In this document: positions 1,232-40,672 of the stretch, piece by piece
Position numbering within the stretch: the first letter of the stretch is position 1
Layout of the letters: every line of letters begins with the position of its first letter
IMG/VR virus record: IMGVR_UViG_3300036832_001095
Span: 1-42,829 of that record
Direction: 5' to 3' (one strand)
Length of the DNA stretch: 42,829 nucleotides
From: a virus
Translations under genes and position numbers: made by a program
The notes under the pieces: model-generated
Database searches by the model: none
Seen by the model: only the letters and a program-made list of their open reading frames with translations
Told to the model about the DNA's origin: nothing

Positions 1232-1377
1232 TGGCCTTCTAATCTCGCGTCGAGCAAACAGCGCGCCAGAGTGCGGAGCAGGGGCGCTGCCTCAACTGCC
1301 CGCCGCTTTATGCCGGTTGGTCCGGTGGCGCGAGACTTCTACGATCATAAGGGAATGAAGGTCATCGTATAATGGCC
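1199..1377 (+). repeat. Direct repeat flanking a ~105-bp insertion before the portal start
   Basis: Bases 1201-1236 and 1342-1377 are the same apart from one C/T difference. They cover the end of the Cys-rich gene and the TATAATGGCC around the portal start. In the right-hand copy the Cys-rich gene runs directly into the portal (42458/42459) with no such duplication. The inserted segment (about 1237-1341) contains a degenerate frame with RCLNC, possibly the remains of another Cys-rich gene. The first portal-like ATG (1231) now runs into a stop after three codons. Confidence 0.7.
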
Positions 1378-3450
1378 GAACTGCTGCGAATGCCAATGCG
1401 CCGCCCGCGGCCGTCAGGCATGCCAACTGCCGAAGCGACACTGGCTAGCCCCAGTAGCGAGCCATGGGACGGCGACGAGGAAGGCTTCCTGCCGGTCGAG
1501 CGCCTGCGCGACAAATACCTCGCTTATCTCACCGTCAAGGTGCAGGAATACGAAGAACAGAAGCTCAGCCGGCATTACTACCACGGCAGCCAATGGACGC
1601 CGGACGAGATCAAAACCCTACGGCAGCGCCGACAACCCATCATCACGTTCAATGAGATCAGCCCTAAGATCGATAATCTCGTATGGATATCCCAGCGGTT
1701 CCGCGCCGATCCCAAGGCATATCCGCGCAATCCGAACAATGCGAATGGCGCCGAGATCGCCACCCAATGCATCCGAGCCGTGCTCGATGGTTGCGAATGG
1801 ACATTCCTCGATGGCTATTGCGCCGGCCAGGCAGCCACCGAGGGCATCGCGGGAATTGAACTGAAGCTGATCGAGGGCGACCACGGCGACCCGGACATCA
1901 GCGCGGATTTCATTTTCGGGGACGACTTTTTTTATGATCCGACGAGTTTCAAGCCGGATTTCAGCGATGCGCGATACAAGGGCATCAGCAAATGGCTGCA
2001 CGAAGATGCGGCGATTGAGTTATTCCCTGACAAGGAAGAAGAAATCAAGTCGCTGATGGTGGAAACGGGCTTTGACCTTACTACACACGCAGATCGCGAG
2101 TTTAAGTGGGTTTATGCGAATGAACATAGGGTGAGGTTAGTTGAGCATTGGTATAAAAACCGCGGGCGGTGGTACTGGGCTTTTTACATTTCAAACATAC
2201 TCCTGGACCAAGGGGTGTCGCCTTTCTTCGATCACCGTAAGAGGTCAACGGATCGTTTTATCATGTTTTCTGCCGCCGTTGATCACGATGGTGATCGATA
2301 CGGATTTGTACGAAATCTCAAGGGACCACAGGATGAGGTCAATCAGCGTCGGAGCAAAGCACTTCATATCAGTAATACAACGCGCCTTACGGTGGAAAAA
2401 GGGGCTGTCGACGATGTCGAGACGGCACGCCGCGAGGCGGCTCGTCCGGATGGCGTCATCGAGTTTAATAAGGGCTTCGAGCCGCCGGCCGAAAAGGATA
2501 GGCAGGAGGATCTACAGGCCCACCTGGCGCTGATGCAGGATGCGCGGCAGAAGATCGTCGGCTTTGCCAACATCATGCCGGACCGCGTCACCGCGGCAGA
2601 GCAAGGCGAGCATTCCGGCGTGGCTATCGACCGGCTTCAAAAAGCGGCCAGTGCGGACCTAGGCACATTCCTGCGCAATTACAAGTCATGGAAGATGCGG
2701 GTTTATCGTGCGGTGTGGTCCGCTATCCAGCATAACTGGACATCCGAACGATACATCCGCGTCAACGCCGGCGATAACGAATTGGCGCAGTTCCTGCAGA
2801 TCAATGCGCTCGCCCTCAATCAATGGGGCCAGCCGACGATCGAAAACATGGTGGGATCGATCGATGTCGATATCGTCATGGACGAGGGGCCAGACACCGC
2901 CAACCTGATGCAGGACGCCTACGAGCTGATTAAGGACGACCCGACCATTCCTTGGAGCATCAAGCTCGAATTCATGCCGATGCCGGCGTCGCTGAAAGCC
3001 TCGCTGCAGCAAAAGCTGGCGCAGCAGGCGCAGCAGCCCGACCCGAAGATGCAGGCCGAGCAGCTCAAGGCCCAGTCGCAGCAAGCGAAGACCCAGGCCG
3101 ATATCCAGTCGCAGCAGATGAAGAGCCAGTCCGATCAGCAGAAGGCCGCGCTCGATCTACAGGCGAAGCATACGCAGGCGCAGGCCGAGATCGCCAATGC
3201 GCAGCAGGACGCGCTGGCCCGCCAGCAGGACGCCCAACGTGCCCGTGAGCAGCATGCAGCCGACATGCGGATTGAGGCGATGCGCGCCGAGACCGAGCGG
3301 CAGAAGCTGATGCTCGAAATGGAGCAGACGCGGCAAGAGCATGCCTTCCGGATGCGCGAGCTGCAGGAGCAACACATTACCACCATGGCCCAGCATGCCG
3401 CCAAGCGCAAAGAAGCGGCGGCGCGACCAAAGGCGAGGACCGAGGCATGA
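1372..3450 (+). CDS. Portal protein, P22-like
   Basis: This 692-residue protein has the length and layout of the P22 gp1 portal family (about 725 aa). It has an N-terminal segment with RHYYHGSQWTPDE and QPIITFNEISPKID, a conserved central body (FIFGDDFFYDPTSF; RYKGISKWLHEDAA), and a C-terminal region from about residue 535 that is a long Gln/Ala-rich coiled coil (many QAQ, AKQ and REQ repeats). It would form the dodecameric ring at the packaging vertex. The start is ATG 1372, overlapping the stop of the duplicated upstream frame. It overlaps the next gene by 4 bases (ATGA). The first ~123 codons recur diverged at 42459-42829. Confidence 0.9.
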   Translation: MAELLRMPMRRPRPSGMPTAEATLASPSSEPWDGDEEGFLPVERLRDKYLAYLTVKVQEYEEQKLSRHYYHGSQWTPDEIKTLRQRRQPIITFNEISPKIDNLVWISQRFRADPKAYPRNPNNANGAEIATQCIRAVLDGCEWTFLDGYCAGQAATEGIAGIELKLIEGDHGDPDISADFIFGDDFFYDPTSFKPDFSDARYKGISKWLHEDAAIELFPDKEEEIKSLMVETGFDLTTHADREFKWVYANEHRVRLVEHWYKNRGRWYWAFYISNILLDQGVSPFFDHRKRSTDRFIMFSAAVDHDGDRYGFVRNLKGPQDEVNQRRSKALHISNTTRLTVEKGAVDDVETARREAARPDGVIEFNKGFEPPAEKDRQEDLQAHLALMQDARQKIVGFANIMPDRVTAAEQGEHSGVAIDRLQKAASADLGTFLRNYKSWKMRVYRAVWSAIQHNWTSERYIRVNAGDNELAQFLQINALALNQWGQPTIENMVGSIDVDIVMDEGPDTANLMQDAYELIKDDPTIPWSIKLEFMPMPASLKASLQQKLAQQAQQPDPKMQAEQLKAQSQQAKTQADIQSQQMKSQSDQQKAALDLQAKHTQAQAEIANAQQDALARQQDAQRAREQHAADMRIEAMRAETERQKLMLEMEQTRQEHAFRMRELQEQHITTMAQHAAKRKEAAARPKARTEA

Positions 3451-8344: not shown

Positions 8345-9313
8345 ATGGCACCGCAGCAAGTTCCACTTGAGGACACATTTTCCGAGGCCGACATCGCCGA
8401 AGCGCTGGCTGGAACCGAGAAGGAAAAGTTCCAATCTGCGTTTGGTCACGATGACGACTTGGATGGACCTGCTGAGGAAGCATCGTCTCATGAAACCGAC
8501 ACCTCCTTAGAGGAGATGGAGGATATTCTTGACGATGACATTCCCCAGGAGGAAGAGGAAGGCGAGCAAGAAGGCGACGATACCGATGCTCTGGACACCC
8601 AGGAAGCCGAGGCCCCGGACCAGACCCCAGAGGGGCGAGGCCGGACATCCAGCGAGCGCCTGCGCACGGTCATCGAGCAACGTCGCCAGATCGAGCAGGA
8701 ACGCGATACCCTTCGCGCCCAGCTCGCAGCCATCCAGGCGCATGCGCAAATGCAGCAGCGCCCGCAATCTCAACAGGAACAACCTGCAGAGCCAGACCCT
8801 TGGAATGATCCGAAAGCCTGGGCGGAAAACGAGCGCAAAGAAACACTGCGCATCTGGGAATCCCGCCAAGTCAATTCCGCTCTCGCAGCTGCCCATAGGC
8901 AATATGGCGACGAGTTTGTTGCGGCATACAAGGAATTGACTTCGCTCAACCCCGGCGATCCCCTCTCCAGGGCCACCGTGCAACACATCTGGGACTCGCA
9001 CAATGCGGGTGAGTCGCTGATGGAGTGGCACGCTGAGCATCAGGCTCTTCAGACCATGCGGAAAGCTGGCGGTGTTTCTGCCTACAAGCAGAATATCGTC
9101 AACGAAATCATGTCCGACCCCGAGATGCGCCGGCAAATCCTCGCGGATATGCGCGGCGAAGCACAACGGGGCGATGGTGGCCGTCCTCGCACATCAACGC
9201 GACTCCCGAAGTCTCTCAACGGGGCGAGTGGTGGCGGATCTGTACGCGTATCCGATCCCGATCTCTATGATGGCTCCGATGCTTCGGTTTTCGCCTATGC
9301 AATGAAGCCCTGA
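8345..9313 (+). CDS. Scaffolding protein
   Basis: The 322-residue product has an extremely acidic N-terminal third (many E/D, for example EEMEDILDDDIPQEEEEGEQ), then a helical coiled-coil segment (about 100-150: SERLRTVIEQRRQIEQERDT, Gln-rich), and a basic C-terminal stretch (QRGDGGRPRTSTRLPKS) of the kind that binds coat protein. This composition, together with its place directly upstream of the coat gene, identifies a P22 gp8-type internal scaffold that guides procapsid assembly. The start ATG 8345 is preceded by TGAGGACA. Confidence 0.85.
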   Translation: MAPQQVPLEDTFSEADIAEALAGTEKEKFQSAFGHDDDLDGPAEEASSHETDTSLEEMEDILDDDIPQEEEEGEQEGDDTDALDTQEAEAPDQTPEGRGRTSSERLRTVIEQRRQIEQERDTLRAQLAAIQAHAQMQQRPQSQQEQPAEPDPWNDPKAWAENERKETLRIWESRQVNSALAAAHRQYGDEFVAAYKELTSLNPGDPLSRATVQHIWDSHNAGESLMEWHAEHQALQTMRKAGGVSAYKQNIVNEIMSDPEMRRQILADMRGEAQRGDGGRPRTSTRLPKSLNGASGGGSVRVSDPDLYDGSDASVFAYAMKP

Positions 9314-9361
9314 CACTTGACGCCGCTAAAAGTCGACGGGCCACCTCCATAGGAGATGGCC

Positions 9362-10195
9362 ATGGCCGTCACAACGGTACAGAGTAATAACAAACTTATC
9401 GTCTTCACTAAACAGATTACCCGGGAATATATCCGGCAAAATCTGTTCGCACCCTATATCGGGGAAGAATACACCGCCATCATTCGGGTTCTCAACGACC
9501 TGAAAAAGGGCGGTGAACAAATTAACATCCCGCTGATCGCGAGGCTCAAAAACAATCCCGTCGCGACCGGTACCCTCGTCGGCAATGAAGAGAATATCGA
9601 TAACTACGGCGATCGAGCCTGGATCGATTGGGCGCGAAATGCCGTCCGCATCCCGCGATCGGAAGAGCAAAAGTCGAGTATCGATTTGTTTGCTCAGGCG
9701 CGCCCATTACTCGAGGACTGGGGCAAGGAACTCCAGCGCGACGAGATCATCGACGCCTATTATGCAGTGCCGCTCGCGTCTACCGCACCGGCCGGTCTTG
9801 GCAGCTCGGGAGGACAGCGCGTCAACGGCGCCCTGTTCGATCAAGCTACCGCCGGTCAGCGCAATACTTGGCTGAGCGACAACCAGGACCGCGTGTTGTT
9901 CGGCGGCGCAGTCGGAAACTATTCGACGATCTGGGTAACCGCCGCCAGCAACGTGACTGCGGCAATGACGGCTTCGGCCGCGAGCTTGATGAAAATGAAA
10001 AGGCTCGCGAAGAAGGCGAATCCCAGGATTCGACCGTACAAGCTCCGGAACGGCAGAGAGTATTTCGTGGTGTTTGCAGGATCAAATTGCTTCCGCGACC
10101 TGCAGAACGACACCACGATTATCTCCGCCAACACGCAGGCCCGCCCGCGCGAGGGCGATGGCATGGACTCAAATCCGCTGTTCCAAGATGGGGAT
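9362..10195 (+). CDS. Major coat protein, exon 1
   Basis: I prefer ATG 9362, since AGGAG lies 6 bases upstream; an in-frame ATG at 9356 is too close to it. Exon 1 encodes 278 residues from MAVTTVQSNNKL and includes segments typical of P22-like HK97-fold coat proteins (TKQITREYIRQNLFAPYIG; GGEQINIPLIARL; EYFVVFAGSNCFRDLQND; MDSNPLFQDGD). Without splicing the frame would run into the intron and stop at 10217-10219, giving a truncated protein. The end at T10195 is set by the predicted P1 helix of the group I intron and falls exactly between codons. The spliced product would be about 384 aa. Confidence 0.85.
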
Positions 10196-10444
10196 CAATC
10201 GGTCCCGCTCGCGGCGTGAGCTGCAAGTGATAACCGGGTGAATTCGGGGAACCTCTCTCTGAGAAAATCCCGAGCCAAGCCGCAAATGTAAGGCGAAAGC
10301 CCCAGGGTTGCGGAAGGTGTAACGACTAGGCGGTGACGAAAGAATAATCCGCCCACGAGCGCCCGGCCCTGAAAAATCAGGTGATGATATAGTCTGAGCT
10401 GGCGGGCGACCGTCAGAAATATCGGATAAAGAGCCGATATAGCG
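10196..10444 (+). ncRNA. Group I self-splicing intron in the coat gene (249 nt)
   Basis: Core elements are visible in order: P-like AATTCGGGGAAC (10241-), Q-like AATCCCGAGCC (10266-10276), R-like AACGACTA (10321-10328) and S-like GATATAGTC (10386-10394). P1: exon GGGAT (10191-10195) pairs with GTCCC (10202-10206), with the required U-G wobble at the splice site. P2: GCTC/GAGC (10207-10221). P4: TCGGG/CCCGA. P5: TCTC/GAGA. P7: GACTA (10324-10328) with TAGTC (10390-10394). A 3' hairpin pairs ATATCGG with CCGATAT (10419-10440). The intron ends in G10444. Removing it joins two coat reading frames at a codon boundary. It carries no homing endonuclease. Confidence 0.88.
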
Positions 10445-10765
10445 AACAATCTGCTCATCTATGCGGGTCTCATCATCCGGGAAATCCCGGAGATGGATAT
10501 CCGGTTGCCGGTCACCTATACGACGGCAGGCGGGTCCGGCGGCCAGATCGCGCCAGTGTTCCTTTGCGGCCAGTCATCGTTGGCATGGTGCTGGGGCAGG
10601 ATGCCGATGCCGACATTCCTGCGGGAAGACGATTATCAATTCTACCGGGGCGTCGGCATCATGATGGCCTATGGAATGAAGCGGATCGCGAAACTCAACC
10701 CCGCCGGTCAGTACAAGGACTGGGGAACATTCACGGGCTATTTCGCATCTGTGGCCGATACCTAG
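10445..10765 (+). CDS. Major coat protein, exon 2
   Basis: The frame from AAC at 10445 encodes NNLLIYAGLIIREIPEMDIR and continues to TAG at 10763-10765 (106 residues). LIYxGxIIREIPE is the expected continuation of P22-like coat proteins after the NPLFQDGD segment that ends exon 1. The C-terminal part includes WCWGRMPMPTFLREDDYQFY and GTFTGYFASVADT. There is no ribosome binding site or sensible start at the head of this frame (the first ATG, 10493, would lose the conserved segment), so it is an exon and not a separate gene. The 100 bp after it (10766-10867) hold no gene I can support. Confidence 0.85.
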   Translation, partial: NNLLIYAGLIIREIPEMDIRLPVTYTTAGGSGGQIAPVFLCGQSSLAWCWGRMPMPTFLREDDYQFYRGVGIMMAYGMKRIAKLNPAGQYKDWGTFTGYFASVADT

Positions 10766-10867: not shown

Positions 10868-11416
10868 ATGTTGAAGAAATGCCTTCTTGCGCTGGCCGCA
10901 GTGGCCGCGCTCACCATGCCGGCGGCGGCGCAGCGTAGCTTCGCGCCGCGAAACTTCCCCGATCAGCAGACTACCTATCTGCGGTTCCCCATTAACTTCA
11001 ACTCGTGCGTTCCGGTGGCGCTGACCTGCACATTCAAGGTCGGCGCGGTGCCCTACAATTCGTTCCTGGTGAGGGCATTCACGCAGACGTTTACAACCTT
11101 TACCGGCGCTACCACGGCAACGGTGTCATTCGGGACGACATCAACCGCCGCCACCAACATCATGGCAGCCGCGACGATTCTGACCGCCGGCAATGCGGTC
11201 GCGCAGTCAATCGCGGCCGGTGGTCTTGGCGTCACCGTCACTGGCAACGGCATCGCCCAATCTGGCGCCCTCGGCGGCTTCGATATCTATGCGACGATCG
11301 TCTATACGGTCGCCGTAGCAACCGCCGGCGCTGCGGTTGGAATCATCGAATACATCCTGCCCAATGACGGCGCCTGTGCCCCGGTCCCGGCCGGCGCTAC
11401 CGCCGCCGGCTGCTGA
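10868..11416 (+). CDS. Putative secreted or capsid-associated protein (182 aa)
   Basis: ATG 10868 follows GAAAGGACAATACC. Residues 1-22 are a clear signal peptide (MLKKCLLALAAVAALTMPAAAQ). The mature part is Ala/Thr/Gly-rich, beta-type, with cysteine pairs near the start (SCVPVALTC) and end (GACAP...AAGC). Its position directly after the coat gene is where many phages encode a head decoration protein, but the signal peptide would send it to the periplasm, which is unusual. Decoration or an envelope role are both possible. A strong terminator follows directly. Confidence 0.65.
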   Translation: MLKKCLLALAAVAALTMPAAAQRSFAPRNFPDQQTTYLRFPINFNSCVPVALTCTFKVGAVPYNSFLVRAFTQTFTTFTGATTATVSFGTTSTAATNIMAAATILTAGNAVAQSIAAGGLGVTVTGNGIAQSGALGGFDIYATIVYTVAVATAGAAVGIIEYILPNDGACAPVPAGATAAGC

Positions 11417-12341: not shown

Positions 12342-12725
12342 ATGCCCGGCGCATACCGCACCCAGACCGATCTTGTATATGCGGTGCTTGGAAACTTGGG
12401 CGCGCTCGCGATTGGGCAGATCCCCAATGTGGAGGATGTCGCCAGCATCAATAACTCGATCGACCCGATCCTGCGTGAGTTGGCCGGTCTCGACATCTGC
12501 TATATTGCCGATTCCAATGCCATTCCCGGCGCGTTGCTATCGCCGCTCGCCGATATCATTGCCGGCGAGGTCGCGAACGGCTGGGGCAAGACCGGCGATG
12601 ATTTCGCGCAACTGATCCAGCGCGGCCTCGGCGTGCCGCCGGGCTCAGGATCGGCCGCTATGGCCATCAAGCAAATCATGCGCGGCCGACCGACATTCGA
12701 GCCATTGCGGGCGCAGTATTTCTGA
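12342..12725 (+). CDS. Head-to-tail adaptor, P22 gp4-like
   Basis: This 127-residue, mostly helical protein begins with a segment (TDLVYAVLGNLGALAIGQIP; INNSIDPILRELAGLDICYI) typical of gp4-type adaptors that bind beneath the portal. The assignment rests on size, predicted helicity and position directly upstream of a gp10-like gene, the same order as in P22. The TGATG at 12723-12727 overlaps the next start by one base, indicating translational coupling. Confidence 0.65.
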   Translation: MPGAYRTQTDLVYAVLGNLGALAIGQIPNVEDVASINNSIDPILRELAGLDICYIADSNAIPGALLSPLADIIAGEVANGWGKTGDDFAQLIQRGLGVPPGSGSAAMAIKQIMRGRPTFEPLRAQYF

Positions 12726-14455
12726 TGCGCGGTCCCTTTCCAATCAATTGGCCGCTGTCGAGCTTCCCGGGTAACACCGCCCAGGAAGGCGCCGGAAGGC
12801 TGATAAACGTCTCCGCCGAACCAATCGGGCCGGGCGGCGCATCACCCGCAAGTTATCATCGGCAGCCCGGCCTGTCGCAACACGCGTCGACCACACAATC
12901 CGGATATCGCGGTGGCCTCATCGTCAATAATCTTTCCTACGAGATATGGACGCCCCCGCCCACTGGGACGAACCCAAACAATGCGGCGACGGTCGACGCC
13001 GGTGGGACTGTCGCTCTGCTCGGCCCGCTGGCAGGCACCAAACACGTCTCGATCGCGCGGAATCAGAACGTTGTTCCCGACGTGGTCGCTGTCGATATCG
13101 ACAACGGCGCTTTCGTTCTGTCGACCGGCGGCGCTCCAGTAGCATTCAATGCAGGCGGCATCCTGCCGCAACCGAATTCGATCTGCTTCCAGGACGGATA
13201 TTTCTTTTTCACGATCGCGGACGGGCGGTGCTTTGCTTCGCCCATCAATACGCTGGGGAGCTCCACCGCGCCATTCAATGCGCTCACATTCATCACGGCG
13301 CAGTCGCGCTCCGATGTCACCCTGCTGCGCGGGATTGCATTCTCCGGCCTGCTGTTCCTGTTCACGACCGGCCACTGCGAAGTATGGCAGGATGTGGCCA
13401 ATCCCGCGCCGGCATTTCCGTATGCCCGCCAGGTCGTGCTGCCGTTCGGATTGTTGCAAGCCAATGCGATCGCCGGCTGGGAAACCGGGTTCGATGATCT
13501 GTCATGGGTGGCGCAGGACTTCGGCGTGTGGCAGTTGCCTTATGGCAGCCTGCAGCCGCAAAAAATCTCGCCGCCAGATCTCGACCGTCTGATCGAGGCC
13601 CAGCACAGGGCCGGGAACGTGCTGGAGGCCTCAGTCTACATGTTCGCCGGCAAGAAATTCTGGGTGCTGTCGTCCCCGGCATGGACGTGGGAATTCAATC
13701 TAGGCACCCAATCCTGGAATGAACGGTGGTCGCTATCGCCATTTGGAACCCAAGGGCGCTGGCGCGGCACTGGTGGGCACCCGGCGTTCGGCAAGTGGCT
13801 CCTCGGCGATGTGCAATCGGGCACGCTTTGCTACATCGACGACGCTAACCGCACCGAGCTGGGCGCCCCCATGCTGGCACGCATGGAAAGCGCGCCGGTG
13901 GCGGATTTCCCAAACCGCATCCGGGTAGCCCGCGCCGATTTTAACTTCTCCGTGGGCTCCGGACAGGTCGTGCGGGCCATTACAATGCATGTGACCGGCA
14001 CGGCGGCCGGAACCGGCGGCGTCGTGCGGCTTGCGGTCGACCAGACCCAGCAAGTAAATACCAACGATACCGTTGTGGTGAGCGGCGTCGGGGGCACCAC
14101 GGAGGCCAATGGCACATGGGTAGTGACCGTTATCGATGCGACGCATATCGAACTGCAGGGGAGTGTTTTTGCTCACGCATGGAGCAGCGGGGGCCTGGTC
14201 ACCGATGTCACTGCGCCGCCCAATGTGATGGAGCCGCGAGTGGCGATAAGCTGGTCGGACGACGGCGGTCTGTCGTGGGGCAACCCGATCCTGCGCGGCC
14301 TCGGGCGGCAGGACGTGTCGAAAACTACTAGGATCACGCTTGCCCGCTGCGGACTTTCGGGGAACCAGGGCCGGAGATGGCGGATTGACGCCTCCGATCC
14401 CGTGAACTCGTCCTTCCTGTCGGCGACCCAGACCGACAGTTCGGCGAAATACTGA
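12725..14455 (+). CDS. Packaged DNA stabilisation protein, P22 gp10-like (576 aa)
   Basis: The N-terminus (INWPLSSFPGNTAQEGAGRL; YHRQPGLSQHA) and the repeated blade-like segments (GTKHVSIARNQNVVPDVVAV; ICFQDGYFFFTIADGR; WRGTGGHPAFGKWLLGD) match the propeller-like tail hub gp10 of P22-type phages. Residues about 415-480 add a small beta domain with VVVSGVGGTTEANGTW, a module common in phage tail proteins. At 576 residues it is longer than P22 gp10 (472), partly because of this insert. Role: plugging the portal channel and joining the tail needle and spikes. Confidence 0.75.
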   Translation: MRGPFPINWPLSSFPGNTAQEGAGRLINVSAEPIGPGGASPASYHRQPGLSQHASTTQSGYRGGLIVNNLSYEIWTPPPTGTNPNNAATVDAGGTVALLGPLAGTKHVSIARNQNVVPDVVAVDIDNGAFVLSTGGAPVAFNAGGILPQPNSICFQDGYFFFTIADGRCFASPINTLGSSTAPFNALTFITAQSRSDVTLLRGIAFSGLLFLFTTGHCEVWQDVANPAPAFPYARQVVLPFGLLQANAIAGWETGFDDLSWVAQDFGVWQLPYGSLQPQKISPPDLDRLIEAQHRAGNVLEASVYMFAGKKFWVLSSPAWTWEFNLGTQSWNERWSLSPFGTQGRWRGTGGHPAFGKWLLGDVQSGTLCYIDDANRTELGAPMLARMESAPVADFPNRIRVARADFNFSVGSGQVVRAITMHVTGTAAGTGGVVRLAVDQTQQVNTNDTVVVSGVGGTTEANGTWVVTVIDATHIELQGSVFAHAWSSGGLVTDVTAPPNVMEPRVAISWSDDGGLSWGNPILRGLGRQDVSKTTRITLARCGLSGNQGRRWRIDASDPVNSSFLSATQTDSSAKY

Positions 14456-18877: not shown

Positions 18878-20883
18878 TGGGCGAGTTTGTTCCGGTCGAG
18901 CATGATCCATTTGAGACGGCGCCGCCGCGCGCCGCGCTGCCTCCCTCGTCGGCCTCCGATTGGGCCCCCGTCGAGCACGCTCCCGAGTTTCACGAGGGGA
19001 AAGACACGGGAGCGCCGCCGGAGGAACATCGCGGATTCCTGGATACTGTGTCGCAGGCCGCGAGAAGGTTCGCGAACGACCTCCACAGATCGCGCGCAGC
19101 AGCCTCGCAGGGCACCACGCCAATCCTCTCCGCCCATAAGGAAAACTTGATTTCTGAAGACGTGCAGGAGGGCGATGATGGCAACCTCTACTACAAGGAC
19201 GCTGAGGGCCGGCTGCAGCCTGCTGACACCAATAAGCACGTTGCACTTCCCGGCGATGATGGAAAGCTGAGGATCTACCAGCGCACCGCTGATACTGACG
19301 AGGGCCGGATATCTTCGGCCGGCCGATTGATGATGACGGGTATGGCAGCGGGGACGCCACGGTTCGGTACGGAACTCCCTGCGGCAGGCGTCCGGGTGCT
19401 TGGAATCGGTACTCGTGGCGCTCCGCTACCCGTGCATCCAGGATGGGTTCCATCGTCTTCCACTGGAGAAGCTATCGAAGCCGCCGGCCGCCTGGGTGTC
19501 GATCTGCCCAAGGCAATCGCGTCCGAGAGCAAGAACGTCAATTTTCTCGGCCAGGTCATGGCGAAGGCTCCCGGCGGCGCCCCACTGCACACCGCGATTG
19601 AGGAGGGCCTGCAGGGCGAAGAAGGGCTCGCTGGCGCATTGAAGCGTACGGGAGCGGAAGCCGGCGGCGTGGCAGACGCCAAGGCAGCCGGCACCGGCGT
19701 CACCACTGGCCTGGAGGACATTTTCAAGCCCGAGAGCCAAAAGGTGGTTCGATCATTCTATGATCGCCTGAAGACCCTGGTTGATCCAAACAAGACAGCG
19801 CCCTTGACCGAAGTGCAGAAAACGGTTGGCGATATCCTTGCCAGAAAGCAAGCCTACGGCAATGAAAAACTCGGGGGTGCGGTCGATGCTGTGGCTGGTG
19901 CGCTCCAGCGGCCTGGCGGCCTGACCTATGAGGCCATGCAAGACTTGCGAACCAGCGTTCGGGAACTGCAGAAAAAGGGCGAGCGGGGTCTTTTGCCGCC
20001 TACCATGTCGGAAGGCGAACTCAACGATATTTATGGCGCGCTCACCAGGGATCTGGGAAACGCCGCAGAGATCACTGGCGGCCCCAGAGGCCGGGCGGCA
20101 TGGGAAGTAGCAAACAGAGCTTCGAGGCTGCGGAAAGAAGCGCTCGACACGCTTAATAAGGTTGTCGGCCCCAAGTCGAGAAGCGACGAAGGCGTGATGG
20201 ATGCACTTCACAGGATGGCCGGTACGGGTGCCGGCGCGGACGTCGACACATTGAGCACGGTGCGGCAAGCGCTCACCGGCATTCCTGGCGCGGTGAAAGG
20301 CGCCCCTGGGGCATGGGAAAATGTGGCATCCACCGTGATCAGCAGACTCGGCAAGAACAGTCAGGGTGAATTCAGTCCCAACCTGTTCATCCGCGACTAT
20401 AACGATTTATCGCCGGCCGGAAGACGGATGCTTTTTAGCGGGGTGGGGCATGGCAACGTAGTCAACGCCCTCGATGATATTGCCAGGGTCTCCGACAAAT
20501 ATGTCAAAGCAGGTAAGCTTGCTAACACTTCCGGGAGCGCTGGCCATGGCGCTCTGATCGGCGCCATAGCTACGGGAGCGACACGGCTCGCCAGCGGAGA
20601 CGTGCTCACGCCAATTGGCATCGCTGCCGGTGTCCTTGGCGCCAATATGACTTCGCGTCTGCTTGGCGCTCCTGCCACTGCCGCCAGCGTGGCGCGATGG
20701 ACCCGGGCTGTCGACAGCCTGGCGCAGACTCCAGGGCTGCGGACTTGGGCGGCCTACAACGTGGCCAGCCGCAACCTTGGCAATACCACGGCCGCCGTCA
20801 CCGGAAATCCATCGCTCGCTCCACATCTCATAAATAAGCTTCAAGGCGCGGTACACCGACCAGATGAACGTCAAGATCAATAG
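18877..20883 (+). CDS. Large internal/ejection protein, gp16-like by position (668 aa)
   Basis: The N-terminal part contains an acidic/charged segment and a small beta domain (DVQEGDDGNLYYKDAEGRLQ). Long helical segments follow (FYDRLKTLVDPNKTAPLTEV; EAMQDLRTSVRELQKKGERG). Near the C-terminus is a hydrophobic Gly/Ala stretch (about 555-605: GALIGAIATGATRLASGDV; IGIAAGVLGANMTS) that could insert into the inner membrane during DNA entry. There is no recognised enzyme domain. It is the third of three probable ejection genes, and the next gene begins 20 bases after its stop. Confidence 0.55.
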   Translation: MGEFVPVEHDPFETAPPRAALPPSSASDWAPVEHAPEFHEGKDTGAPPEEHRGFLDTVSQAARRFANDLHRSRAAASQGTTPILSAHKENLISEDVQEGDDGNLYYKDAEGRLQPADTNKHVALPGDDGKLRIYQRTADTDEGRISSAGRLMMTGMAAGTPRFGTELPAAGVRVLGIGTRGAPLPVHPGWVPSSSTGEAIEAAGRLGVDLPKAIASESKNVNFLGQVMAKAPGGAPLHTAIEEGLQGEEGLAGALKRTGAEAGGVADAKAAGTGVTTGLEDIFKPESQKVVRSFYDRLKTLVDPNKTAPLTEVQKTVGDILARKQAYGNEKLGGAVDAVAGALQRPGGLTYEAMQDLRTSVRELQKKGERGLLPPTMSEGELNDIYGALTRDLGNAAEITGGPRGRAAWEVANRASRLRKEALDTLNKVVGPKSRSDEGVMDALHRMAGTGAGADVDTLSTVRQALTGIPGAVKGAPGAWENVASTVISRLGKNSQGEFSPNLFIRDYNDLSPAGRRMLFSGVGHGNVVNALDDIARVSDKYVKAGKLANTSGSAGHGALIGAIATGATRLASGDVLTPIGIAAGVLGANMTSRLLGAPATAASVARWTRAVDSLAQTPGLRTWAAYNVASRNLGNTTAAVTGNPSLAPHLINKLQGAVHRPDERQDQ

Positions 20884-20902
20884 AAACTCCTGGACGCAAG
20901 CA

Positions 20903-21946
20903 ATGAACAACGCCATGAAACTCTCCCTGGTTGCACTTTGTCTGTCGGCGTCTGCCGCCCAGGCCGCCGGCACCATTCCCCTTGCCCTGGCGCAGCAGTC
21001 TGATGCCAACGGCAGGCCATTGGCTGGAGCCCTATTATACATTTATCAAGTAGGCACGGTGGCCACACCTCAAGATTCTTTTCCAGATCCCAGCCTCACT
21101 GCCGGGACTGCACTTCAGTGGCCATTGCCTGCCGACAGCACCGGCCGCATTCCGATGTTTTATCTCGCCGACGGCTTTGTGCACGTGCGCCTGACGGACG
21201 CCAACGGCTCCCCGATCTTTGACAATCCAAGCATCCAAGTCGTTGGTCCATCATCAGGAACCGGGGGCGGCGGCGGACCGGGTGTTGATCCGACCGCCAT
21301 TGCGGTTACCGGTGACATCAAGTTTCGGATCACCGGCACTTCGGAAACGCAGACCGGCTGGGTCAAGCTGAATGGCCAGACAATCGGAGATGCGATGTCC
21401 GGTGCGAACACCGCCAACGCGACCACGCAGGCACTTTTTTCCTACCTGTGGCAATATTGCATCGATGCGCCTGGCCATTGTCCCGTTCCCGGCGGTCGCG
21501 GCACGACGGCGCTTAACGATTATAATGGGCATAAGCAAATTACCTTGCCGGATTTCCGTGGGCGCACGCCGGTTGGGCTCGATGACATGGGAGCGGTGGC
21601 TGCAAGCCGCATTGCAGCAAGCAATGTTACGAGCGGCGGGACCGATGGCCCAACGACGCCCCTCGCGACCGGCGGCGAGGCCAATCATGCGCTGACTGTC
21701 GCCGAGCTGGCGGCGCACAATCATACGGCGTCCGATAGCGGACACACCCATCAAATTTGGACCCAGCAAGCCAGCCCTGGAAATCCTGTCATGGCGTCTC
21801 CCGCGGTATCCACTGTGCAAGCAGTGAGCAGCGTGGCGCAAACGCTCAGCGGATCCGCCAATATTATCGTGAACTCCAATGGCAGTGGCACCGCGCACAA
21901 CACAATGCAGCCCTTCCTGCTTGGCACTTGGTACATGCGGCTATAA
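20903..21946 (+). CDS. Tail fibre with phage tail collar domain and signal peptide (347 aa)
   Basis: In-frame ATGs occur at 20864, 20903 and 20915. I chose 20903, just after the previous stop, which gives a signal peptide MNNAMKLSLVALCLSASAAQA. An N-terminal beta domain follows (LAGALLYIYQVGTVATPQDS; RIPMFYLADGFVHVRL), then a collar domain: GWVKLNGQTIGD, ITLPDFRGRTPVGLDDM, GGEANHALTVAELAAHNHT and the end AHNTMQPFLLGTWYMRL. Collar domains are found at tail fibre tips and their bases. A Sec signal on such a virion protein is unusual. The next gene starts 3 bases later. Confidence 0.75.
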   Translation: MNNAMKLSLVALCLSASAAQAAGTIPLALAQQSDANGRPLAGALLYIYQVGTVATPQDSFPDPSLTAGTALQWPLPADSTGRIPMFYLADGFVHVRLTDANGSPIFDNPSIQVVGPSSGTGGGGGPGVDPTAIAVTGDIKFRITGTSETQTGWVKLNGQTIGDAMSGANTANATTQALFSYLWQYCIDAPGHCPVPGGRGTTALNDYNGHKQITLPDFRGRTPVGLDDMGAVAASRIAASNVTSGGTDGPTTPLATGGEANHALTVAELAAHNHTASDSGHTHQIWTQQASPGNPVMASPAVSTVQAVSSVAQTLSGSANIIVNSNGSGTAHNTMQPFLLGTWYMRL

Positions 21947-24228: not shown

Positions 24229-25206
24229 ATGTATGACTCTGTCGTCATCAGCAGTGGCCACGGCAAGTACGTCCGCGGTGCGAGCGGCTATCTCGACGAA
24301 GTTGATGAGGCGCGGCGGGTGGTCGACCTGACGGCGGAAATGCTGCGCTCGCGCAACGTCAAGGTGAAGACCTTCCACGACAATACGAGCTACGATGTCA
24401 GCACTAACCTCAATACGATTGTCAATTACCACAATGCACAGACGCGACAGTTGGACATCAGCGTGCATTTCAACGCCTATGAAACCACGCAGAAGCCAAT
24501 GGGCGTCGAGTGCCTGTACGTCACGCAGGAAAGCCTGGCCCGGCAGATTTCGGCACAAATTGCCATGTGCGGATTCCTTGATCGTGGACCGAAATTCCGG
24601 AGTGATTTGAAATTTCTCAATTCCACGGAGATGCCGGCCGTCTTGATCGAGACCTGTTTCGTGGACTCCCGCGCCGACGCTGACCAATACGATCGCCAAT
24701 TCGAGATCGTGTGCGACGCCATCGCCGATGTCATCGGTGGCGATGATGCCGGGTCCAATCCGATTCCGCCCGAGCCGCCAGGGGCCGGCGCGCCGCTGTT
24801 TGCGGCCACTGGCAAGGTATCGTGGTTCGGAGGGCCGAACGACACCGGCGTGAGCCCGTCCGAGGGGCTGGCGTTCATTTACAACGTCGACCAGGCCCAG
24901 CACCTGTTCTTGCCATACCAGCCATCCGGGACATCGGGGCTCGCAAGGCGGCTGAATATGTGCGTGCCGTACGTGGCGTGCCGGTGGGACTATTCGGTCA
25001 CGCCCAAGCCGAGCCTGCTGCAGCATCTTGCCTATGTGTGCAATCCGCGGACTGGCCATGGCGCGCCGTGCTTTCCTGCCGACTGGGGGCCGCATGAGGA
25101 CACCGGACGCGTCGCCGATGTGAGCCGCGCCGTGATGGAGATCCTGGGGCTGGAGACTGACGACACTGTCGAGGTCGTCTATCCCTGGGGGGAAGGCGAG
25201 CCGTGA
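24229..25206 (+). CDS. Endolysin: N-acetylmuramoyl-L-alanine amidase fused to a DPBB/expansin-like domain
   Basis: Residues 1-~170 are an Amidase_3-type catalytic domain: SSGHGK with H11, a Glu near E24 or E27, SVHFNA with H80, and VLIETCFV with catalytic E141, consistent with a zinc amidase that cuts the peptide from the glycan. After a Pro-rich linker (IPPEPPGAG) the last ~140 residues resemble a double-psi beta-barrel as in RlpA/expansin proteins (VSWFGGPNDTGVSP; WGPHEDTGRVADVSRAVME; VEVVYP). That part may bind or loosen peptidoglycan. There is no signal peptide, so release would need a holin. The next gene starts at a GTGA overlap. Confidence 0.85.
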   Translation: MYDSVVISSGHGKYVRGASGYLDEVDEARRVVDLTAEMLRSRNVKVKTFHDNTSYDVSTNLNTIVNYHNAQTRQLDISVHFNAYETTQKPMGVECLYVTQESLARQISAQIAMCGFLDRGPKFRSDLKFLNSTEMPAVLIETCFVDSRADADQYDRQFEIVCDAIADVIGGDDAGSNPIPPEPPGAGAPLFAATGKVSWFGGPNDTGVSPSEGLAFIYNVDQAQHLFLPYQPSGTSGLARRLNMCVPYVACRWDYSVTPKPSLLQHLAYVCNPRTGHGAPCFPADWGPHEDTGRVADVSRAVMEILGLETDDTVEVVYPWGEGEP

Positions 25207-39142: not shown

Positions 39143-40672
39143 GTGCTTGATGCCGCTGTCTGGGAGGCCCAGCCAGGGCCGCAATCCTCCCTGATCTCGT
39201 GCCCCATATTCGAAGTGTTCTTTGGGGGGGCGCGCGGCGGCGGCAAAACCGATGGCATGCTCGGCGAGTTCGCCCGGCACGCCATGGACTACGGCCAAGG
39301 CGCCATCGGCATCATGGTCCGCCGCGAACGCACCCAGCTCATGGAGACGATCGAACGCTCACGCGCGCTTTATGGCCCGCTGGGAGCCATCTACCATGAG
39401 CAGGACAAGCACTGGAGATTCCCGGGTGGAGCGCGACTGAGGTTCGCATACCTCGAACGCGACGCGGATGCCGAGGCTTATCAGGGCGCATCGTTTACCC
39501 GGGTCTACATCGAGGAGATCGGCAACTTTCCGACCGAGGGCCCAGTAGTCAAACTGATGGCCACCTTGCGCAGTAGCAGCGGCGTCCCAGTCGGCTTCCG
39601 CGCCACCGGCAACCCAGGGGGGCCAGGTCACTTGTGGGTCAAGCGCCGGTATATCGATCCCGCGCCCGGCGGCTGGTGCGTGATCACCGATCCGGCGACG
39701 AAGCTCGAACGCGTCTACATACCCTCACGCGTCGGCGACAATGCCTACCTCGGCGCCGACTATGTGCAGCGGCTGCGGGCATCAGGATCGGCCGAGCTGG
39801 TGCGGGCCTGGCTTGAGGGCGACTGGAACGCAATCGAAGGGGCATTCTTCCATGAGTGGTCGGCCAAGAATGTCGTCGAGCCGTTTGTTGTTCCGAAGGA
39901 TTGGATACGCTTTCGCTCGGGCGATTGGGGTTCTGCCTCGCCATTTTCGATCGGATGGTGGGCTGTTGTCCAGGATGATTTTGATGTGCCTTCCGCCCGC
40001 CTCCCTGACATGCATTCGGCTGAAAATGGAAAAGCAAGGAACGCATGGTCCGATCACGATGGCGGAAGTAGACGAATACTTCCGCGCGGGGCCTTGGTCC
40101 GTTACCGTGAATGGTATGGTTCCGAAAACCCTGCGGCGGGCGGCAAGGGTCTGAAACTCACGGCAGAGCAGGTCGGAGATGGGATTGCAAAACGAGAAGC
40201 GGGAGACCCCAAACTTTCTTATGCTGTTATGGACCCGTCTGCTTTTAAGGAGGACGGTGGACCCTCGATTATGGAGCGGCTCAACGGTCGCCTTATCGCC
40301 GCAAGTCTTGCTTCGTTTCGTCCAGCGGATAATACAAGAGTTGCAGCAAGCGGAAGCCATGATCGCAGAGGGCCGATGTCGGGATGGGATGCTATGCGTG
40401 CGCGAATCCGCGGTCAAAGCATGCGGCCTATGGTTTATTGCTTCGACACGTGCGTCGCCAGCATTAGAACAATTCCCGTTCTCCAGCACGACCCGAACAA
40501 AGCCGAAGACCTCGACACGGAAAGCGAGGACCACGCGGCCGATGACTGGCGATATGCCTGCAGCTCCCGGCCCTGGCGCCGCCACATAGCTCCGCCCGAC
40601 CCGGCAAAGGACGCCTACCGGCCGCCCGGCGATGACATGGACGGCGTGGCGAGCAGCGTGAAGTTGCTATGA
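39143..40672 (+). CDS. Terminase large subunit (509 aa)
   Basis: The start is GTG 39143. The ATPase domain has Walker A GGARGGGKT (G28-T36) and Walker B VYIEEIGN with E124/E125. The nuclease domain has acidic residues in RSGDWGSA (D261), AVMDPSAF (D364) and HAADDWRYA (D467, D468), the RNase H-like metal site. GNPGGPGHLWVKRRYID is a typical terminase segment. It packages DNA into the procapsid through the portal and cuts concatemers. The 3' end overlaps the next gene by 4 bases. Confidence 0.92.
   Translation: MLDAAVWEAQPGPQSSLISCPIFEVFFGGARGGGKTDGMLGEFARHAMDYGQGAIGIMVRRERTQLMETIERSRALYGPLGAIYHEQDKHWRFPGGARLRFAYLERDADAEAYQGASFTRVYIEEIGNFPTEGPVVKLMATLRSSSGVPVGFRATGNPGGPGHLWVKRRYIDPAPGGWCVITDPATKLERVYIPSRVGDNAYLGADYVQRLRASGSAELVRAWLEGDWNAIEGAFFHEWSAKNVVEPFVVPKDWIRFRSGDWGSASPFSIGWWAVVQDDFDVPSARLPDMHSAENGKARNAWSDHDGGSRRILPRGALVRYREWYGSENPAAGGKGLKLTAEQVGDGIAKREAGDPKLSYAVMDPSAFKEDGGPSIMERLNGRLIAASLASFRPADNTRVAASGSHDRRGPMSGWDAMRARIRGQSMRPMVYCFDTCVASIRTIPVLQHDPNKAEDLDTESEDHAADDWRYACSSRPWRRHIAPPDPAKDAYRPPGDDMDGVASSVKLL

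Follow-up and report, generated by a model that had tools for sequence, protein, structure and literature searches.

How does a phage obtain full-length coat protein when the reading frame of its major coat gene stops early and resumes downstream? The locus that raises this question lies in the DNA analyzed here (the window), an entire IMG/VR virus record of 42,829 bases, the source of which is an uncultured tailed phage. The tailed-phage setting is indicated by profile matches of other genes in the window, namely portal (1372 to 3450), head closure (12725 to 14455), tail protein (20864 to 21946), endolysin (24229 to 25206), and terminase (39143 to 40672); a tRNA gene search of the window found none. 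Directly upstream of the coat gene, in the position usual for a scaffold gene, is a 322-aa frame (8345 to 9313) without a PHROG match, and downstream of it is a 182-aa frame (10868 to 11416) with a weak match to Rz-like spanins (E value of 0.0086).

Two exons of a major capsid protein gene

The frame at 9356 to 10219 (287 aa), which closes at 10219, as the preliminary description stated, with a TGA at 10217 to 10219, matches the PHROG 334 "major head protein" profile (E value of 2.3e-43) and Pfam Phage_capsid_3 (E value of 7.7e-24). Residues 3 to 99 of the frame at 10445 to 10762 match positions 268 to 376 of the PHROG 334 profile (E value of 6.5e-12). Consecutive parts of this profile are matched by the exon 1 frame and then by exon 2, which alone scores 19.5 bits against Phage_capsid_3, under the cutoff of 23 bits. 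For the joined protein, the E values are 1.6e-59 (PHROG 334) and 5.7e-32 (Phage_capsid_3). The interrupted gene encodes a phage major capsid protein of PHROG 334/Pfam Phage_capsid_3.

The exact junction was located by comparison with intronless relatives. IMG/VR was scanned with the coat protein, and the best 80 of 99 relatives were examined; 79 of these align to codon 280, and both exons are present in 78 (L077 and L078, with exon 2 unmatched, were left out). In 77 of the 78, within the best 80 of 99, the codons for ...GD are followed, with 0 nucleotides between, by the L codon of LIYAG, which lies at 10454 in the window; furthermore, exon 1 ends in Gly-Asp codons (GGNGAY) in 79 of the 79 aligned relatives. 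Therefore, the intron spans positions 10196 to 10453 (258 nucleotides), and the product, the mature coat after joining, comprises 383 aa. Exon 1 (9356 to 10195, plus strand; 280 codons, ending ...NPLFQDGD) is defined by the profile matches together with the junction in relatives, whereas the start of exon 2 (10454 to 10765, plus strand; 103 codons plus stop, beginning LIYAGLIIREIPE) is derived from the empty sites and from two other capsid loci, L214 and L093. These boundaries revise the preliminary description, which had the intron end at 10444 with 249 nucleotides (9 nucleotides off, by the 77 of 78 relatives and by L053, the only relative with an intron), exon 1 end at codon 278 (two codons off), and the unspliced coat comprise 280 rather than 287 residues.

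When bacterial and archaeal genomes were scanned with the coat exon, 31 pattern matches and 0 confirmed relatives were obtained. BLAST of the coat gene against 50,697 phage records gave hits in just two Aeromonas records (E value of 1e-5), each a short match to the core, and the spliced protein matched five phage records at 26 to 37% identity, each uninterrupted. With the intron alone as the query, 30 phage records were found at an E value of 0.1, of which 0 covered 80% of it.

A group I intron and its boundaries

The claim that a group I intron interrupts the major coat gene holds. Covariance-model comparison yielded a match to Rfam RF00028 at 10184 to 10416 (54.5 bits against a cutoff of 50; E value of 3e-11), the sole such match in the window at curated cutoffs. 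This E value and the 77 empty sites exclude chance, and the interruption of the major capsid gene by a group I intron is real. The match begins in exon 1 and halts at P9 and so gives no 3' boundary. The 5' splice site follows U10195. The 3' splice site is placed after G10453 because 77 of the 78 relatives are seamless at this point and L053 has no G matching G10444. The anticipated terminal G thus exists, along with the P9.0 pairs, which are kept in L053, but it is G10453 and not G10444. The 3' end is shared by the window (AACAATCTG), L053 (AACAAATCTG), and L214 (AACACAACTG). This L214 intron, of 252 nucleotides, lies after ...TAD and before DYVGVSH in a different capsid gene, a site at which the homologue in L093 is uninterrupted; its first 11 nucleotides (CAATCGGTCCC) are identical to those of the window intron, as is the AACA..CTG end.

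The in-frame TGA (10217 to 10219, plus strand) lies 22 to 24 nucleotides into the intron and closes the unspliced frame after seven residues past exon 1, QSVPLAA; the counterpart in L053 is YTVPLAA with the same stop. In both the window (10196 to 10219) and L053 (3841 to 3864), the intron starts as a short open reading frame in the coat frame that ends in VPLAA-stop, and the second intron region of another capsid locus, L086, has a frame ending in ALAA-stop. This shared feature may come from the P1/P2 sequence, or translation as far as the stop codon may have some function.

No same-strand frame of at least 60 aa was found within the 258 nucleotides, which bears out the earlier view of the intron as endonuclease free. 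The internal endonuclease gene by which a homing intron is recognized is accordingly absent from the window intron, whereas the related intron of L094 contains one. The absence of an endonuclease suggests that one was lost or that transfer was aided by one encoded elsewhere.

Predicted fold

Fourteen helices were drawn on the window and then counted on the window-L053 alignment (all coordinates on the plus strand). P1 (10191 to 10196 with 10201 to 10206) includes the U10195-G10202 wobble at the 5' splice site, which is kept in L053, and P7 (10324 to 10328, GACUA, with 10390 to 10394, UAGUC) crosses P3 (10234 to 10240 with 10360 to 10366); both the U-G pair in P1 and the P7 pairing had been recognized in the preliminary description. 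The drawing further includes P4 (10244 to 10248 with 10269 to 10273), P5 (10254 to 10257 with 10261 to 10264), P6 (10274 to 10276 with 10316 to 10318), P6a (10280 to 10285 with 10308 to 10313), P6b (10292 to 10294 with 10299 to 10301), P8 (10368 to 10372 with 10377 to 10381), which is reshaped in L053, P9 (10399 to 10405 with 10410 to 10416), P9.1 (10419 to 10425 with 10434 to 10440), and P9.0 (A10397-U10452 and G10398-C10451), which sets G10453 as the terminal G. An extra hairpin lies between P7 and P3 (10329 to 10333 with 10349 to 10353); one or more such hairpins mark subgroup IA, of which the intron is a candidate member.

Across the 70 pairs, 95.6% of the cells in the window and L053 are paired, a percentage that leans toward the window because the helices were drawn on it, and 7 pairs are changed on both sides (3 in P9, 2 in P3, and 1 each in P6a and P9.1); this count rests on two sequences and is limited accordingly, the changes on both sides being its stronger part. 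When partners were slid by 1 to 3 columns, 30 to 39% were paired with 0 to 2 both-side changes, and in a shuffle control the observed values were reached in 1 of 500 cases. P3, P4, P6, P7, and P9 are 100% paired in both sequences. P2 as drawn, with 60% of cells paired, is not kept in L053, where another stem can be drawn by eye. Energy folding of the window intron gave a modest result (z score of -2.72, with 3 of 200 shuffles as low). Inspection of the window by eye revealed no P10, the pairing of the guide with the 3' exon, and CUCAUC has no partner in CAAUCG; in the third intron of L214, also by eye, a pairing can be drawn between GAUU in the 3' exon and AAUC in the guide loop. P10 is not a universal feature of group I introns, and because it is not required, membership in group I is retained.

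Distribution among coat-gene relatives

The one relative with an intron at the same site, L053, has an insertion of 255 nucleotides with its own Rfam group I match (E value of 2.5e-11), so that the occurrence of the intron in the PHROG 334 coat family is patchy. The two introns are 82.8% identical over positions 5 to 244 (17% divergence), and nucleotide identity of the exons is 70 to 90% by bin. Identity is 90% over the final 10 codons of exon 1 and 80, 70, and 70% in the downstream bins; the downstream bins of L053 are no closer to the window than those of intronless relatives, and these comparisons give no clear sign of flank co-conversion.

In a tree of the coat proteins, with 62 distinct rows out of 79, the window groups with the intronless L004, L006, and L002, and L053 falls outside these; support is 98/87 for the set of five and 95/68 and 94/80 within it. 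The best tree demands two intron changes. Taken alone, the strongly supported branches are also compatible with a single gain followed by losses.

Proposed splicing and alternative explanations

The reading that we consider very probable, judged from the sequence, is that positions 10196 to 10453 are a 258-nucleotide, endonuclease-free group I intron that is spliced to give the 383-residue coat. In the late transcript, the last exon 1 bases, GGGAU, would form pairs with the guide, GGUCCC. Attack by a P7-bound guanosine would come after U10195, and the freed 3' end of exon 1 would then attack after G10453, so that GAT and CTC would be joined and the coat frame restored. This two-step, guanosine-initiated route is expected from membership in the group I family, and catalysis, splicing in infected cells, and dependence of the intact coat on splicing would go with it. 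If the intron is spliced as predicted, every full-length coat protein derives from spliced message, and splicing must therefore match the output of a protein of which each virion needs hundreds of copies. Points against this reading are the lack of a P10 found by eye, P2 not kept in L053, the modest z score, and the presence of the intron in only 1 of 78 relatives.

The same intron could instead be spliced after G10444, which is in frame and would yield a coat of 386 aa that has NNL as additional residues; a 3-bp GCU/AGC pairing with the bases just 5' can even be drawn by eye. The extra residues are absent from 77 of the 78 relatives, L053 has an A where the window has G10444, and both the P9.0 pairs and the end common to L053 and L214 belong to G10453, which makes this variant very unlikely. 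A degenerate intron that no longer splices, leaving the coat truncated or split, is slightly less likely again: the failure to find P10 by eye would fit it, and the next in-frame ATG of exon 2, at 10493, would open a 90-aa frame, but the core pairings are intact and kept through compensatory changes, and a split product would be without the LIYAGLIIREIPE stretch that is conserved in relatives.

That the interruption is an assembly artifact or chimera might be suspected in a single metagenome contig, the virus record of an uncultured phage, with an intron in just one relative. L053, however, is a separate contig with the identical insertion point, 17% intron divergence, and 70 to 90% exon identity, and we regard this explanation as highly improbable. 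Ribosomal bypassing and inteins can each restore an interrupted frame; given the in-frame stop 22 to 24 nucleotides in and the strong group I match, either of them in place of RNA splicing is the most remote of the explanations weighed here.

Related introns in other capsid families

A 20-base motif from the P7 core of the window intron identified 15 IMG/VR loci, one of which, L082, is the contig of L053. In eight of the other loci (L083, L084, L086, L088, L089, L090, L094, and L096), the downstream frame belongs to PHROG 9953 "major head protein" (E values of at most 1.4e-52), and the L095 frame is the same as that of L094; in total, 9 of the 14 loci apart from L082 are major-head genes by profile or identity. 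The frame of L085 had no match among the PHROGs, and those of L087 and L092 are identical to it and that of L091 similar. In these four loci, introns with the same core lie just 5' of a frame of 790 to 813 aa, and the 790-aa frame has no PHROG match. The frame of L093 likewise had no PHROG match, and its protein resembles that of L214.

More loci were added with a second pattern, a looser pattern, and BLAST of the window intron against the collected loci. Five of these (L122, L178, L189, L215, and L218) belong to PHROG 9953, and L214 and L206 belong to PHROG 1357 (E values of 2.4e-8 and 3.8e-4). Thus, introns related to that of the window recur in genes for major head proteins, and these belong to no fewer than three families (PHROGs 334, 9953, and 1357), which bears on the question of which phage genes introns colonize. 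Rfam group I matches over the cutoff number three in L214 and two each in L086 and L206; the three in L214 (5959 to 7864, minus strand) are in one capsid-gene region with the PHROG 1357 match downstream, and a frame between them resembles, by motif, a LAGLIDADG endonuclease. The frame within the L094 intron is a GIY-YIG endonuclease (Pfam E value of 3.5e-7). GIY-YIG-like frames, by resemblance, are also seen in the introns of L083, L088, L089, L095, and L096, near the starts of the PHROG 9953 genes.

In the intron-core tree (27 rows, five strongly supported branches; L216 labeled by resemblance, L122 confirmed as PHROG 9953), the introns are not grouped by capsid family, and the row nearest to the window is L214a (82% identity), with L053 farther away. 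The window intron is related to a set found in several unrelated capsid families, and lateral arrival is therefore most likely; because the intron-core tree is poorly resolved, lateral transfer is likely rather than proven.

A wider sample of intron cores

The looser pattern GAAGGTGTARMGACTAG has at least 119 loci in IMG/VR, at each of which the longest frame on either side, where there was one, was compared with the PHROGs (100 entries upstream and 108 downstream, L198 supplying two of the latter). Among the matches listed for the upstream frames, which, like the downstream ones, lie near an intron and are not necessarily interrupted by it, PHROG 1328 "major head protein" is the commonest (12 of 100), followed by HNH endonuclease families (6), DNA polymerase 262 (5), and tape measure families (5). 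Among those listed downstream, where one locus may give two frames and one frame several families, an unnamed family comes first (11 of 108), followed by glycosyltransferase (8), tail fiber (7), PHROG 9953 major head (7), and tape measure (6); other major-head families listed are 1328 (5), 283 (5), and 267 (4). At the 57 sites (99 frames) with the window-type AC core, the matches listed include PHROG 1328 (17), PHROG 9953 (7), and DNA polymerase 262 (7), counts that reflect a motif that picks one kind of core. The PHROG 1328 frames are not independent events because several are near relatives (71 to 96% identity to the first row). This core-motif sample of uncultured viruses points to structural genes as intron hosts.

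Comparison with known systems

In the portions available of two recent papers, most split phage genes are assigned to the nucleotide and DNA metabolism class and the question is raised why introns colonize only such core genes (PMC11878797, 2025), and the preference is called mysterious (PMC12350094, 2025). Against this published preference, we tentatively propose that the lineage of the window intron has spread among major-head genes of unrelated capsid families, with or without homing endonucleases, and that capsid genes are a main reservoir of phage introns in nature, an idea toward which we remain somewhat more doubtful than confident. The description of a coat-gene intron as unusual holds only in part, given the precedent of mycobacteriophage LittleE (Pope et al. 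2013, PMC3706429) and the place of major-head genes among the commonest named hosts in the IMG/VR matches listed. A literature phrase search for an intron interrupting a major capsid gene found no paper within its coverage, which leaves out most subscription journals.

LittleE is among the closest known parallels. Its capsid intron was shown to splice by RT-PCR and N-terminal protein sequencing (PMC3706429). As in the window, it is probably of group I, interrupts a major capsid gene, and was found through intronless relatives, with an exon ending in U and an intron ending in G (PMC3706429) and an early in-frame stop, 30 bp in (PMC11855218, likewise in part). Unlike that of the window, it is about 819 bp long and has a frame for a LAGLIDADG-like endonuclease on its opposite strand, and the capsid is of the HK97 type, a different family (PMC3706429). 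The same source, in the part available, cites a group I intron in the capsid gene of lactococcal phage Tuc2009, as in the window, and reports for BAKA and Optimus an insertion of 265 bp that is spliced during infection, similar to the window intron in being short and in interrupting a virion gene; unlike the window intron, it is in a tail gene, and part of its sequence is reported to be shared with the LittleE intron. The DNA polymerase genes of Aeromonas phages Aes120 and Aes516 share an intron core of 48 to 62 nucleotides with the window at 84 to 90% identity, but the match is limited to this short core and the gene is different.

Further parallels are found among uncultured phages, where introns lie in or adjoin the major-head genes of L053, L084, L086, L090, L122, L178, L189, L206, L214, L215, and L218. 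The P7 core motif is common to most of these and the window, several are above the Rfam cutoff, and L214 also has the guide and 3' end of the window intron; except for L053, they differ from the window intron in being located at other sites, in capsid genes of PHROG 9953 or 1357. Capsid-gene introns are already known, and their recurrence across several capsid families is the less expected part.
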